From: Microbacterium saperdae
Lineage (GTDB): Bacteria; Actinomycetota; Actinomycetes; Actinomycetales; Microbacteriaceae
Direction: 5' to 3'
Length of the DNA stretch: 64,000 nt
Assembly (NCBI RefSeq): GCF_006716345.1
Contig: NZ_VFOX01000002.1
Location: forward strand, 1,054,001 to 1,118,000
Positions 5,460 through 45,878 of the stretch are shown here, piece after piece; position 1 is the first letter of the stretch; the number at the start of each line of letters is the position of its first letter. A program made the position numbers and the translations under genes. The notes under the pieces are model-generated. The model ran no database searches, was not told where the DNA came from, and saw only the letters and a list, made by a program, of their open reading frames with translations.

Positions 5460-5999
5460 ATGGACGAGGGAACACCGCACGCAGCCGCTGATCAGGGGCG
5501 CGCGCTGCTCTCGACGATGATCGCCGACGAGCCGCAGCGGCTCCGACGCCGCAGCATCTCGCTCGGCGTGCCGGTGGACGATGCCGATGACGCGGCGCAG
5601 ACGGCGCTGATGCGGGCCTGGCGCTCGATCGAGCACCTGGAGATGCCGGAGCCGGGGCGCCTCTGCTCGTGGCTCGACGCGATCGCGCGCAACGTCGCCA
5701 TCGACCTCGCCCGCCATCGGGCGCGCCACCCGGAGTCCGCCTTGAACGATGCTCTGCCCGATCAGGAGAATGTGGCGGGCGCCGTCGAGATCAGAGTGCT
5801 GCTCGACGGAGCCCTGTCGGCTCTGCGTGCCCTGCCGGATTCGCTGCGGACTCCTCTGCTGCTGACCGTGGTGGAGGGATTGTCGACGGCCGAGGTCGCA
5901 GATCGGCTCGGCATCGAACCCGCGGCCGCCCGGCAGCGGATCTCCCGTGCCCGCAAGGCGATGGGCGCATGCCGGAAGTCGGGGATGGGCGAGGACTGA
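5460..5999 (+). CDS. Small ECF-type RNA polymerase sigma factor
   Basis: 179 residues with the two-domain sigma-70 layout. Region 2 runs from about residue 25 to 85 (DDAADAAQTALMRAWRSIEHL ... WLDAIARNVAIDLARHRAR). Region 4 runs from about 115 to 170 (ALRALPDSLRTPLLLTVVEGLSTAEVADRLGIEPAAARQRISRARKAM). A GAGGAGAGG ribosome site precedes ATG 5460. No anti-sigma gene is adjacent. The only near neighbour is the convergent NTF2-like gene, whose own promoter instead matches the ECF41 consensus. The regulon of this sigma factor is unknown. Confidence 0.88.
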   Translation: MDEGTPHAAADQGRALLSTMIADEPQRLRRRSISLGVPVDDADDAAQTALMRAWRSIEHLEMPEPGRLCSWLDAIARNVAIDLARHRARHPESALNDALPDQENVAGAVEIRVLLDGALSALRALPDSLRTPLLLTVVEGLSTAEVADRLGIEPAAARQRISRARKAMGACRKSGMGED

Positions 6000-6033: not shown

Positions 6034-6414
6034 TCACGCGGTGCCGAAGGGGTTGTCGATCGCGTAGCGCCATCCATGCGTCTCGTCATGCACGGCCACG
6101 TCGGCGGTCGTGCCCGCGAGAGCGATCGGCGACCCGTCGGGAGCCGCGCCCTCGATCGTCCAGTCGGCGACGGCGAGGCCCACGCCGTCGCTCTCGAACA
6201 CGTGCCGGACCGTCATCACGATCGGCAGGTTCAGACCGAGGAACTGCTCCAGCGCCCCGCGCACGGCGTCCTCGCCGGTGACAGGCTGACCGGGGGCAGG
6301 GACGAAGACGACGTCGGGGGCGTTCAGCGCCATCAGTCCGTCGAGGTCACGGGCGTTGAATCGGTCCGCGAAAGCCAGGTTGAGCTGATCCAGGGAGGTG
6401 ACCGGAGTGCTCAT
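6034..6414 (-). CDS. NTF2-like (SnoaL-type) protein, predicted ECF41 target
   Basis: 126 residues with an NTF2/SnoaL-like alpha+beta cone fold: FADRFNARDLDGLMALNAPDVVFVPAPGQPVTGEDAVRGALEQFL and a closing WRYAIDNPFG strand. Such proteins are small enzymes or ligand-binding modules acting on hydrophobic substrates; the substrate here is unknown. ATG 6414 has a strong AAAGGAAA ribosome site. The frame is open 13 codons further upstream. Its promoter (TGTCACA, 15 bp, CGTC) is an exact ECF41-type site, linking it to the ECF41 sigma factor encoded about 39 kb away at 44911-45807. Confidence 0.82.
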   Translation of the reverse strand: MSTPVTSLDQLNLAFADRFNARDLDGLMALNAPDVVFVPAPGQPVTGEDAVRGALEQFLGLNLPIVMTVRHVFESDGVGLAVADWTIEGAAPDGSPIALAGTTADVAVHDETHGWRYAIDNPFGTA

Positions 6415-6463
6415 GTGTTTCCTTTCAGGAGGGGCCGGCCGGATGGCGACCACTGTGGAGAAA

Positions 6464-6489
6464 GACGTCGCCGCGACGAAGGTGTGACA
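6464..6489 (-). promoter_or_regulatory. ECF41-type promoter upstream of NTF2-like gene
   Basis: On the minus strand TGTCACA (6489-6483), a 15-bp spacer and CGTC (6467-6464) match the promoter pattern reported for ECF41 sigma factors. The start codon of the target lies about 50 bp downstream, with a good ribosome site. The same motif pair occurs in front of the ECF41 sigma gene and the epimerase gene further right. Confidence 0.65.
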
Positions 6490-42815: not shown

Positions 42816-43208
42816 TCAGACGGAGCCCCAGAAGCGGTCCTCGGCGGCCTGGTCCTCGCTGATCAGCCAGACTTCGGCGATGCGTCCGTCCGTGATCCGG
42901 AACACGTCGACGCCGTGCTGGTCGAGGTCAGGCTGCCCCGGTCGTTGCGCGCGGAACCGCACAGTCGCCGACACCAGGTCGCCGCTCTCGGTCGCGGAAT
43001 CGGTCTCCAGCGCGAAGGTTCCGCCGCTGAGCTCCATGAACGTGCCCAGATGAGCGAGGATCGCGTCGGGACCGATGTGGTCGCCCGACACCTGGTTCGC
43101 GCCGGGCTGATGCCAGACGGCATCCGGGCTGAAGGTGGCGGCCAGCGCGGCCATGTCTCCCGCGGCCATGGCCGCTCCGTACTGTCCCACGACGTCGATA
43201 GCCGACAT
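42816..43208 (-). CDS. NTF2-like (SnoaL-type) protein
   Basis: 130 residues: YGAAMAAGDMAALAATFSPDAVWHQPGANQVSGDHIGPDAILAHLGTFMELSGG, then QHGVDVFRITDGRIAEVWLISEDQAAEDRFW, the usual closing strand of SnoaL-like ketosteroid-isomerase-type proteins. Probably a small hydrophobic-substrate enzyme or binding protein. It is divergent from the HxlR regulator with an 87-bp gap, so it may be that regulator's target. Unlike the other NTF2-like genes here, it shows no ECF41-type promoter. Confidence 0.85.
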   Translation of the reverse strand: MSAIDVVGQYGAAMAAGDMAALAATFSPDAVWHQPGANQVSGDHIGPDAILAHLGTFMELSGGTFALETDSATESGDLVSATVRFRAQRPGQPDLDQHGVDVFRITDGRIAEVWLISEDQAAEDRFWGSV

Positions 43209-43295: not shown

Positions 43296-43676
43296 ATGAG
43301 CACCGGGTGGACCGTGTTCTCGGCCAAGTGCCCGTCGCGGGCGTCGCTCGCCCGGATCGCCAACAAGTGGACCGCGATGATCGTGGTGCTCCTGCACGAG
43401 GAGCCGCTGCGGTTCGGCGAGCTGCACCAGCGCGTCGATGGCATCGCGAAGAAGGTGCTCTCCGACACGCTGCGCGCTCTGGAGCGGGATGGCATGATCG
43501 CGCACGGCGTCGATCCGGACGGTCACGCGCGCTACCGTCTCACCGCACTCGGACGCACACTGCACGAACCCCTCCAGGCCCTGCAGGTCTGGGCGGAGTC
43601 CCATGTGGACGACGTGCGCGATGCGCAGGACCGCTACGACGAAGCGGCCGACGAACGCGTGCTCGACGGCCGCTGA
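43296..43676 (+). CDS. HxlR-family winged-helix regulator
   Basis: 126 residues. It has the conserved N-terminal Cys12 (AKCPSRASLARIANKWTAMIVVLL) and the winged helix LRFGELHQRVDGIAKKVLSDTLRALERDGMI, followed by HARYRLTALGRTLHEPLQAL. HxlR proteins are dimers that often sense electrophiles or oxidants through that cysteine. It is divergent from the NTF2-like gene and convergent with the epimerase gene. Confidence 0.9.
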   Translation: MSTGWTVFSAKCPSRASLARIANKWTAMIVVLLHEEPLRFGELHQRVDGIAKKVLSDTLRALERDGMIAHGVDPDGHARYRLTALGRTLHEPLQALQVWAESHVDDVRDAQDRYDEAADERVLDGR

Positions 43677-43686
43677 TCGGTCGGCC

Positions 43687-44442
43687 TCAGCGCGGCGGGT
43701 TCGCGGGCAGCCACTCGGCGAGCGTGGTCGGGAAGATCTGTGCTCCATCGACGGGGAGCAGCGTGCGCTCTTCGATATGTGCGCCGAAGTACTGCGCGTC
43801 GGGGTCCTGCACGACGACCCGGTCATCACCGCGGAACGCGAGTCCGCGCCGGATGAACTCATCCATCGTGAAGACCTCGGGGCCGGCGATCTCGATTCCG
43901 CCGTTCAGAGGTGCGCCGACAGCGGTGCGGGCGACCGCGGTGGCCACATCGGCCGCGGCGATCGGTTGGATCAGGGCACCGGGCAGCCGGACCTCCGCCC
44001 CGGCGGCGACCGTCGACGCGATGCTGCCGATGAACTCGAAGAACTGCGTGGCGTGCACGAACGAGTAGGGCACGCCGGAGGCGGCGATCAGCTTCTCCTG
44101 GGCGGCCTTGGCGTGGAAGTAGTCGATGTCCTGCGGGCGGTCGGTGCCGACGATGGTGAGGGCGACATGATGCCCGACACCGGCTTCCTTCTCCGCGGCG
44201 AGCAGATTCCTCGTCGACGTCGTGAAGAACGCCAGGACGGCATCCTTCTCGAAGGACGGGGAGTTCGACACGTCGATGACGACGTCGGCACCGGTCAGCG
44301 CCTCGGCGAGACCTTCTCCGGTGATCGAGTTCACTCCCGTGTTGGGAGACGCCGCGATGGCTTCGTGCCCGTGGGCCGTGAGCTTCGCGACGACCTGGGA
44401 GCCGATGAGCCCCGTTCCGCCGATGACGACGATCTTTGACAT
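43687..44442 (-). CDS. NAD(P)-dependent epimerase/NmrA-like protein (ECF41-associated)
   Basis: 251 residues with a Rossmann N-terminus IVVIGGTGLIGSQVVAKLTAHGHEAIAAS and the atypical-SDR features VVIDVSNSPSF, VALTIVGTDRPQ, YFHAKAAQEKLIAASGVPYSFVHATQFFEF and IQPIAAADVATAVARTAV. Oxidoreductases and epimerases of this kind are the typical partner genes of ECF41 sigma factors. An ECF41-like promoter (44520-44494) lies upstream. The substrate is unknown. Confidence 0.88.
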   Translation of the reverse strand: MSKIVVIGGTGLIGSQVVAKLTAHGHEAIAASPNTGVNSITGEGLAEALTGADVVIDVSNSPSFEKDAVLAFFTTSTRNLLAAEKEAGVGHHVALTIVGTDRPQDIDYFHAKAAQEKLIAASGVPYSFVHATQFFEFIGSIASTVAAGAEVRLPGALIQPIAAADVATAVARTAVGAPLNGGIEIAGPEVFTMDEFIRRGLAFRGDDRVVVQDPDAQYFGAHIEERTLLPVDGAQIFPTTLAEWLPANPPR

Positions 44443-44493
44443 GTCGAGCCTTCCTCTGACTGCGCCGCACGAAGAGCAGCGTCCACCAGCTCT

Positions 44494-44520
44494 GACCGGA
44501 TGGGCTCTCCGGTTGTGACG
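44494..44520 (-). promoter_or_regulatory. ECF41-like promoter of the epimerase gene
   Basis: Minus strand: CGTCACA (44520-44514), 15 bp, then CGGTCAG beginning at 44498. It differs from the sigma gene's promoter at one -35 base, with the same 15-bp spacer and the same CGGTCAG -10 region. Confidence 0.55.
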
Positions 44521-44521
44521 C

Positions 44522-44914
44522 TCAGGGCCGATCCCACCGCCGCAGTTTCTCGGGATTGCGGATGATCCACAGTTCGACGATCAGCCCCGCGTGGGTGCGC
44601 GCGCAGAGCACGGTCGTGATCCGACCCTGCCGGCGGATGACGATGCCGGGGCTGCCGTTGACGGATGCCGTCGCGACGTCGCCCGAGACCGCACTCCGCA
44701 GCACCGCATCGGCGGCGGCATCCGGTCCGGGAAGCACGGACGAGGGAGCATCGCCGTATCCGCCGCTGTCGATCACCGTCACGACCGCGGCATGCAGCAA
44801 TGAGCGCGTGCGATCCGCGTCCTGGTCGACCAGAGCGAGCGCCAAAGCGTCGATGGTGTCCGGATCCGGGGGCTGCGGTTCGCGCCGACGCCACCGGGCC
44901 GGCGGCCGGGTCAT
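44522..44914 (-). CDS. Free-standing ECF41 C-terminal (SnoaL-like) domain protein
   Basis: 130 residues. No sigma domains are present, but residues about 20-127 look like the C-terminal SnoaL-like extension of ECF41 sigma factors: IDALALALVDQDADRTRSLLHAAVVTVIDSGG, the beta region VNGSPGIVIRRQGRITTVLCARTHAGLIVELWII, and the terminal NPEKLRRW (120-127), equivalent to the family's NPDKL motif. The start overlaps the sigma stop (ATGA), so it is made together with the sigma factor. It may bind the same effector or modulate the sigma factor in trans; this is inference. Confidence 0.8.
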   Translation of the reverse strand: MTRPPARWRRREPQPPDPDTIDALALALVDQDADRTRSLLHAAVVTVIDSGGYGDAPSSVLPGPDAAADAVLRSAVSGDVATASVNGSPGIVIRRQGRITTVLCARTHAGLIVELWIIRNPEKLRRWDRP

Positions 44915-45807
44915 GCGTGCGCCGCGCTCACATGGCGCAGCTTCTCGGGGCTCATCACCCAGAGCAGCTGTCGGATGCCGTCGTCCGATGTCGTGACGGT
45001 GACCATGGTCGTCACGATGCCGTTCTCGACCAGCGTCGCCGCCGGCTGATCGTTGACGCGCACCCAGCCGATCGACTTGCCCACCCAGAAATGATGCGCG
45101 AACGCGGCGACGAACTTCGCCACCCGTCCACGCCCGCTGACCGGGATGCGCGCGGCGAGTGCGACGCCGTTGCCGTCGGTGTAGCTGACGACCTCGTCCG
45201 CGAACAGCTTCTCGAGCTGGGCGGCGTCGCCTTCCTGTGCTGCGACGAGGAAGGCAGCGAGCAGGGTGCGCTGCGCCGAGGATTCCACGGCGATCCGCCG
45301 TTCGGAGGTGAGGTGGGCGCGCGCTCGACTGACGAGTTGCCGGGCGCTGACCACGCTCACGGAGATGACCTCGGCGATGCGCGGATACGGGTAGTCGAAG
45401 GCCTCGCGCAGCACATACGCCGCCCGTTCGGTCGGGGTCAGCTTCTCCAGCATGAGCAGCACCGCGAACTGCAGCGCCTCGGCACGCTCGGCGCCGAGCG
45501 CCGGATCATCCTCCGTGTTCACGGGCTCGGGCAGCCACGGGCCGACGTAGGTCTCGCGTCGCACTCTGGCCGACTGCAGCACGGTGATCGACAGGCGCGT
45601 GGTGATGGTCGCGAGGAACGCTCCCGGTTCCCGGATACCGGAGCGTTCGGTGCTCTGCCAGCGGATCCAGGTCTCCTGCACGATGTCCTCGGCATCGGCC
45701 ACGCTGCCGAGCATCCGATATGCGATGCCGAACAGCCGCCGACGCTGTTCGTCGAACACGCCGAGCGCATCGTCCAGGTCATCGCCCGACGTCATCTCAC
45801 CGCTCAT
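44911..45807 (-). CDS. ECF41-family sigma factor with SnoaL-like C-terminal domain
   Basis: 298 residues. Sigma region 2 is at about 14-80 (RRLFGIAYRMLGSVADAEDIVQETWIRW). The conserved linker WLPEPV (91-96) follows, then region 4 at about 112-170 (LTPTERAAYVLREAFDYPYPRIAEVISVSVVSARQLVSRAR). The SnoaL-like extension (about 178-298) holds YTDGNG (209-214, in place of DGGGK) and SPEKL (286-290, in place of NPDKL). In ECF41 proteins the extension controls sigma activity without a separate anti-sigma factor. ATG 45807 has GAGGAGGAG upstream. Its own promoter is ECF41-like, suggesting autoregulation. Confidence 0.93.
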   Translation of the reverse strand: MSGEMTSGDDLDDALGVFDEQRRRLFGIAYRMLGSVADAEDIVQETWIRWQSTERSGIREPGAFLATITTRLSITVLQSARVRRETYVGPWLPEPVNTEDDPALGAERAEALQFAVLLMLEKLTPTERAAYVLREAFDYPYPRIAEVISVSVVSARQLVSRARAHLTSERRIAVESSAQRTLLAAFLVAAQEGDAAQLEKLFADEVVSYTDGNGVALAARIPVSGRGRVAKFVAAFAHHFWVGKSIGWVRVNDQPAATLVENGIVTTMVTVTTSDDGIRQLLWVMSPEKLRHVSAAHA

Positions 45808-45851
45808 GGCTCCTCCTCTCTGCGCAGCGCGCAGAGTGTCCTCTCTTCTCT

Positions 45852-45878
45852 GACCGGACAGAAGCCGCAGGTGTGACA
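45852..45878 (-). promoter_or_regulatory. ECF41-type promoter of the sigma gene
   Basis: Minus strand: TGTCACA (45878-45872), 15 bp, then CGGTCAG starting at 45856. The expected start is near 45845, giving a leader of about 38 nt that contains the ribosome site. Confidence 0.65.

Follow-up and report, generated by a model that had tools for sequence, protein, structure and literature searches.

We analyzed a stretch of 64,000 nucleotides (nt) from Microbacterium saperdae ("the window": contig NZ_VFOX01000002.1, positions 1,054,001 to 1,118,000; the whole genome is 4.32 Mb in two contigs). The window contains two genes for sigma factors of the extracytoplasmic function (ECF) type. On the minus strand, a gene for an ECF41 sigma factor (44911..45807, 298 amino acids) is followed by an open reading frame of 130 amino acids (44522..44914), which resembles the C-terminal domain of ECF41 sigma factors, and then by a gene for an NmrA-like, NAD(P)-binding oxidoreductase (43687..44442; PF13460 at E = 1.8e-9 and PF05368 at E = 8.7e-9). 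About 39 kb away are a gene for a shorter ECF sigma factor (5460..5999, plus strand) and an NTF2/SnoaL-like gene (6034..6453, minus strand). An earlier note on this DNA had proposed that the ECF41 sigma factor drives its own gene, the oxidoreductase gene, and the NTF2-like gene from three copies of one promoter motif. It was silent on the open reading frame at 44522..44914 and on the sigma gene at 5460..5999.

The ECF41 sigma factor and its promoters

The product of 44911..45807 consists of sigma2, a WLPEP linker, sigma4, and a fused SnoaL-like C-terminal extension of about 100 amino acids. It scores 341.9 bits against TIGR02957 (the cut-off is 323.25), and the GPWLP of the linker is invariant across 33 aligned relatives. 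The neighboring gene also fits: carboxymuconolactone decarboxylases, oxidoreductases, and epimerases are the usual targets of ECF41, and here the neighbor is the NmrA-like oxidoreductase. The motifs of the extension are changed. DGGGK, a motif of the ECF41 extension, is replaced by DGNG. NPDKL, another motif of the extension (PMC7730460), is replaced by SPEKL. Also, some residues after the linker, such as LGAER and EAL, are specific to a subtype of ECF41 that includes this protein (57 subtype sequences versus 55 others). Judging from its sequence, this protein is a genuine ECF41 sigma factor, of a distinct subtype. The earlier note, which had recognized it by WLPEP, DGNG, and SPEKL, was correct on this point.

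Among 247 genomes from the genus, 52 carry an ortholog of this sigma factor (at least 67% identity, as read from the match list). One of these orthologs is split: at L131 (genome G187), the sigma gene is divided into two frames, and a match to the domain encoded by 44522..44914 adjoins it. The M. saperdae genome also has a second ECF41 gene (L003, G000:C2:267855-268721); a further NmrA-like gene is transcribed divergently from it, and the DNA between the two contains imperfect ECF41 motifs.

Both local promoters, on the minus strand, have the form [TC]GTCACA-N15-CGGTC. TGTCACA-N15-CGGTC precedes the sigma gene (45852..45878), and CGTCACA-N15-CGGTC precedes the oxidoreductase gene (44494..44520), one base past the stop codon of the open reading frame between them. 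We counted [TC]GTCACA-Nk-CGGTC, with k = 10 to 22, in 53 Microbacterium loci with this sigma factor (including the window's own and the split one; about 67-100% identity). There were 87 sites at k = 15 and just 1 (at k = 11) across the other 12 spacers, and 49 of the 53 loci had at least one N15-CGGTC site. Most of these sites (72 of 87) are followed within less than 350 nt by the start of a sigma gene (26 sites, at 14-166 nt) or of a gene of the oxidoreductase family (46 sites, at 27-93 nt; these include the window's type and more distant paralogs). In several species (L018, L024, L032, and others), the sigma gene and the oxidoreductase gene point away from each other, and the intergenic space between them contains both N15-CGGTC promoters.

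A second set comprised the 51 best-scoring loci of the subtype from named genomes (L203-L253). Six of these are from Microbacterium and three repeat the first set, which brings the subtype to 104 loci, 101 of them distinct. The second set has 45 sites at k = 15 and 1 at other spacers. Among 29 lower-scoring ECF41 loci (L254-L282), we found no CGGTC form, and [TC]GTCACA-N16-CGTC occurs 9 times, with 2 matches at other spacers; here the boundary between L253 and L254 was set by score, our tree groups L259 with the subtype, and two of the loci, L266 and L270, match only in part. Both forms span 27 nt with the GTC in identical register, so what distinguishes the subtype is CGGTC, where the first C of CGTC is replaced by G. 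The window's own promoters are thus of the subtype form and not TGTCACA-N16 +/- 1-CGTC. We did not treat a CGTC promoter as a condition for membership in ECF41, because the consensus was found at most, not all, of the regions studied (PMC3426412).

The frequency of these motifs is less informative than their conservation. The whole genome has two matches to GTCACA-N14-17-CGGTCA, which are the sites upstream of the sigma gene and the oxidoreductase gene, and one match to the reversed control. Within the window, counts of three patterns were not above those in shuffled sequences, and GTCACA-N13-18-CGGTC, which occurs 3 times versus a mean of 0.66, was matched by 6 of 100 shuffles. The window counts are uninformative alone because there is little or no excess over the shuffles; the evidence for the local promoters is that they are conserved across loci. 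The predicted promoters before the sigma and oxidoreductase genes are real, far beyond chance in the comparison across loci, and are ordinary for ECF41, the CGGTC form aside. The sigma factor is probably autoregulated and probably drives the adjacent oxidoreductase gene, so this part of the proposed regulon stands.

A free-standing ECF41-type domain

The open reading frame at 44522..44914 begins within the stop codon of the sigma gene (ATGA, a 4-nt overlap). Its product matches positions 167-288 of PRK09636 (E = 5e-12) and, weakly, the neighboring sigma factor's own C-terminus (27%, E = 2e-5). We found no Pfam match for it. We aligned 33 free domains, which were hand-picked among 44 of 120-146 amino acids. 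With a profile of these, the first match in the PDB was SigJ (5xe7, residues 166-298, E = 1.7e-13); the next match was at E = 2.6e-4. In a fold comparison with an AlphaFold2 model of the window's protein (pLDDT 89.8, pTM 0.82), SigJ was again the top match (TM 0.59, based on query length), with many NTF2-like folds close behind. The best conserved positions in the 33 rows are D-x-G, NG, and W-x4-P-x-KL-x2-W, and M1, D49, W116, P121, and K123 are invariant. In the window's protein, DSGG and NPEKL are kept. Given its homology to the ECF41 extension, the absence of a sigma core, and the predicted fold, we consider that this protein is an ECF41-type extension only.

We considered whether the sigma factor's SPEKL and DGNG might have been traded against the motifs that are retained in its partner. 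This idea is weakened by several sigma factors of the same subtype elsewhere, which retain NPDKL or NPxKL.

The free domain adjoins 48 of the 53 orthologous sigma genes in Microbacterium. It overlaps the sigma gene by 4 nt in 41 cases and by 1 nt in 3 cases, and there is a gap in 4 cases (2, 81, 165, and 175 nt). (These counts take the start codon nearest to the sigma stop, a choice that favors small distances.) Within flanks of up to 2.5 kb, the 51 named loci include 12 with a SnoaL-only open reading frame, 2 with a sigma2 stub, and 1 with an eroded sigma core; no such partner was found in these flanks at the other 36, of which L208 and L249 have another full-length ECF41 nearby. Partners are present in Microbacterium, Paractinoplanes, Williamsia, Saccharothrix, Acrocarpospora, Kribbella, Nonomuraea, and Streptomyces. 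Profile searches across the family and the class also return fused ECF41 proteins; 9 of 48 loci chosen from these searches hold a SnoaL-only open reading frame, and a chosen set like this does not yield a frequency.

The partners in related loci form a graded series, from a tandem second ECF41, through an eroded sigma core and a sigma2 stub with a SnoaL domain, to a SnoaL domain alone. At L157 and L158, a divergent second ECF41 lies in tandem and retains sigma2 (E = 3.6e-6 and 0.01 with Pfam), the WLPEP linker, and sigma4 (E = 5.4e-8 and 6.6e-6). In the partner at L161, sigma4 is detected, sigma2 is under Pfam detection, and a stretch rich in serine and alanine takes the position of the WLPEP linker. 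At L187, L191, and L203, a sigma2 stub (E = 2.5e-5 to 1.2e-4) precedes the SnoaL domain, and sigma4 was not found. (L187 and L222 are apparently the same locus.) The window, L159, and L189 have the SnoaL domain alone.

A tree of 167 C-terminal domains places 27 free domains and 6 core-bearing partners in one group (SH-aLRT 89), which is nested in a larger group with full-length ECF41 proteins (SH-aLRT 96). (The label "remnant" in this tree is loose, as several such rows are ordinary full-length ECF41s slightly below the score threshold.) All 66 C-termini of the neighboring sigma subtype are in another group (SH-aLRT 99), with 2 further rows. Because the tree places the two apart, we rejected a duplication of the neighboring sigma factor's own C-terminus as the source of the free domain. 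Instead, we read this domain as what remains of a second ECF41 after the loss of its sigma core. Another group (SH-aLRT 99) joins L240 from Streptomyces brasiliensis with L186, L188, and the free domain of L189, the latter three from one family, and suggests a separate loss of the sigma core.

The distant promoter and a second ECF sigma gene

The distant site, TGTCACA-N15-CGTC (6464..6489, minus strand), lies upstream of the NTF2/SnoaL-like gene (PF12680, E = 7e-13), which likely starts at the ATG at 6414, after AAAGGAAA, and not at the GTG at 6453. All three promoter motifs of the earlier note are indeed present where it placed them, but we could not confirm that they are one motif: the distant site spans 26 nt and ends in CGTC, while the two local sites have CGGTC at the end of a 27-nt span. 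The NTF2-like gene is found in 25 of the 247 genomes, and [TC]GTCACA-N15-CGTC is upstream of it, once each, in 22 of these 25 loci; in 18 of these, the next bases are TTYCTC. There are 6 matches at other spacers, and five of these (at k = 12) are the same -35 element with a CGTCGTC repeat. Among the 104 loci of the window's ECF41 subtype (101 distinct), N15-CGTC does not occur. The distant site is a conserved promoter, judging from these loci, of a different form from the CGGTC sites.

The sigma factor encoded by 5460..5999 has 179 amino acids (PF08281 at E = 2.3e-13, PF04542 at E = 8.8e-9) and no C-terminal extension. Among the 25 matches listed for it, only the general ECF model TIGR02937 is above its cut-off, and the best specific model reaches 66 bits versus a cut-off of 141.55. 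Of the 25 genomes that carry the NTF2-like gene, 23 have an ortholog of this sigma factor; at E <= 1e-20, none was detected in the other 222 genomes (Fisher p = 2e-30). The two without it, G016 and G030, are drafts (86% and 77% complete). In all 23 genomes with the ortholog, the NTF2-like gene adjoins it, in convergent or same-strand order (convergent in the window). We think that this sigma factor is probably the cognate of the distant promoter, as a local pair of sigma factor and target.

The ortholog of the window's ECF41 is in 10 of the 25 genomes with the NTF2-like gene and not in the other 15. Of those 15, 11 have another full-length ECF41, according to a TIGR02957 search. The other four, namely G040 and G241 (each 100% complete) and the drafts G016 and G030, yielded no full-length ECF41 at E <= 1e-10, and G040 and G241 retain the promoter of the NTF2-like gene. 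We also considered the second ECF41, L003, as the owner of the distant site; it has only imperfect upstream motifs, and in G040 and G241, again, the search turned up no full-length ECF41.

The other two TGTCACA-N14-17-CGTC sites in the genome are at L012 and L013. The one at L012 (around 1501-1527) has the form TGTCACA-N16-CGTC and overlaps with an inverted repeat, GGATGTCA...TGACATCC, which is possibly an operator and which is flanked by two divergent genes whose products look like ATPases of ABC transporters. The one at L013 is upstream of a gene for a substrate-binding protein and extends as far as the start of a divergently oriented gene. In the ECF41 locus, a further SnoaL_2 protein (PF12680, E = 1.3e-18) is encoded a short way downstream of the oxidoreductase gene, next to a regulator of the HxlR type (42816-43208 on the minus strand and 43296-43676 on the plus strand).

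Two proposed modules and the alternatives

We give a probability of roughly 65% to the view that the window contains two independent ECF modules: an ECF41 sigma factor with a free domain that acts in trans, and a separate pair of a minimal ECF sigma factor and an NTF2-like gene. In the first module, the ECF41 subtype would recognize [TC]GTCACA-N15-CGGTC upstream of both its own gene and the oxidoreductase gene. The sigma factor and the free domain are probably co-transcribed and perhaps translationally coupled. The free domain, as the remnant of a second ECF41 minus its sigma2/sigma4 core, would most likely bind the neighboring sigma factor in trans and adjust its activity. It would bind at the WLPEP linker, the site of action of fused ECF41 C-terminal domains, and a small ligand may occupy its NTF2-like pocket. 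In the second module, the minimal sigma factor would drive the adjacent NTF2-like gene via TGTCACA-N15-CGTC, outside of the ECF41 regulon.

The known ECF41 proteins (Ecf41 of Bacillus licheniformis and Rhodobacter sphaeroides, and SigJ of Mycobacterium tuberculosis) share the domain order, the WLPEP linker, and the fused SnoaL-like extension with the window's sigma factor, and they too have an adjacent oxidoreductase or epimerase gene behind a TGTCACA promoter (PMC3426412). The window differs in its -10 element, which is CGGTC at N15, in DGNG and SPEKL, and in its second, free extension domain. Removing the end of the extension raised activity about 20-fold in B. licheniformis and 120-fold in R. 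sphaeroides, and removing the whole extension abolished activity (PMC3426412). NPDKL is said to connect the extension with the linker motif YVGPWLPEP (PMC7730460). By analogy, a co-expressed free extension with an NPDKL-type motif would then be well placed to act in trans on the neighboring sigma factor. Wecke et al. concluded that the fused domain controls ECF41, presumably without a second protein, and saw no obvious second regulatory protein; they also note hypothetical genes, without names, that lie between an ECF41 gene and its target (PMC3426412). These may include the free domain. We found no description of a free ECF41 extension protein in the literature that we consulted on ECF41 and SnoaL-type sigma factors (PMC7730460, PMC8999054, PMC3426412). 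A close parallel is ECF56 SigG1-RsfG from Streptomyces tsukubaensis, in which a sigma factor with a fused SnoaL_2 domain has a co-transcribed neighbor that binds it (PMC7730460). RsfG is described as having no conserved Pfam domain (PMC7730460); the window's neighbor likewise has no Pfam match but is an ECF41-type SnoaL domain. The second module is like other minimal ECF sigma factors (sigma2 and sigma4 only) that have a gene with an ECF-like promoter alongside, except that its target is a single NTF2-like gene.

The free protein might instead be an effector, such as an isomerase-like or cyclase-like enzyme that partners with the oxidoreductase. Its NTF2-like fold would suit this role, as ketosteroid isomerases and epoxide hydrolases are close behind in the fold matches, and so would its position between the sigma and oxidoreductase genes. 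But its conserved residues include marker residues of the ECF41 extension, the nearest protein in both sequence and fold is the C-terminal domain of SigJ, and its relatives have remnants of the sigma core, so we consider an effector rather unlikely. More doubtful still is a decaying duplicate without function. The free domain does diverge quickly (the mean column identity is 44%, versus 76% for the sigma factor, with 33 rows each), and at some loci the partner is broken or was not found. Yet the open frame and the signature residues are kept in all 33 aligned members, and the partner is present beside 48 of 53 sigma genes.

The remaining alternative is the earlier note's distant target, which would have ECF41 drive the NTF2-like gene across 39 kb and tolerate a spacing that is shorter by 1 bp. 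The -35 element, TGTCACA, is identical; TGTCACA-N14-17-CGTC occurs only 3 times in the whole genome, and not at all in the reversed control; a spacer of 16 +/- 1 is given for the ECF41 group (PMC3426412); and the ECF41 ortholog and the NTF2-like gene show a weak co-occurrence (p = 0.02). Nevertheless, we judge this regulon to be very improbable and not supported, because the promoter form differs and is absent from the 104 loci of the subtype, because the promoter persists in two genomes (G040 and G241) in which we found no full-length ECF41, and because in 23 of 25 genomes the target has a different ECF sigma gene next to it.

Several observations weigh against two modules with a trans-acting domain. 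The ECF41 ortholog and the NTF2-like gene co-occur slightly more often than expected (10 of 25 genomes versus 42 of 222, p = 0.02), which may reflect kinship. The sigma gene at 5460..5999 has no promoter of the distant form within 150 nt upstream. In Microbacterium, 4 of the 53 loci lack an exact N15-CGGTC site, and for 15 of the 87 sites, neither a sigma gene nor an oxidoreductase gene starts within 350 nt on the same strand. A tblastn search found no partner at 5 of the 53 loci (L104, L110, L114, L122, and L123), and only 15 of the 51 named loci have one, which means that the subtype can do without a partner. As for the origin of the free domain, three of the four sigma2-stub scores are just below the curated Pfam cut-off (only L191 is above it), and the tree is a quick one, with 131 columns for 167 rows and many open forks.

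We still favor two modules. If this is correct, then the free extension domain, apparently from another sigma factor, is a natural experiment on the role of this domain in trans, and together with the intermediates it is a stepwise example of how a regulator might arise as a sigma factor erodes. By their exact forms, the promoters seen here also fall into three classes that can be told apart by sequence. More tentatively, and with a little less than even confidence, we propose that an ECF41 in the Actinomycetes lost its core for binding RNA polymerase and DNA, apparently repeatedly, and became the regulatory subunit of a second ECF41. If so, this would be an anti-sigma or co-sigma factor made from a dead sigma factor, with living intermediates still extant.

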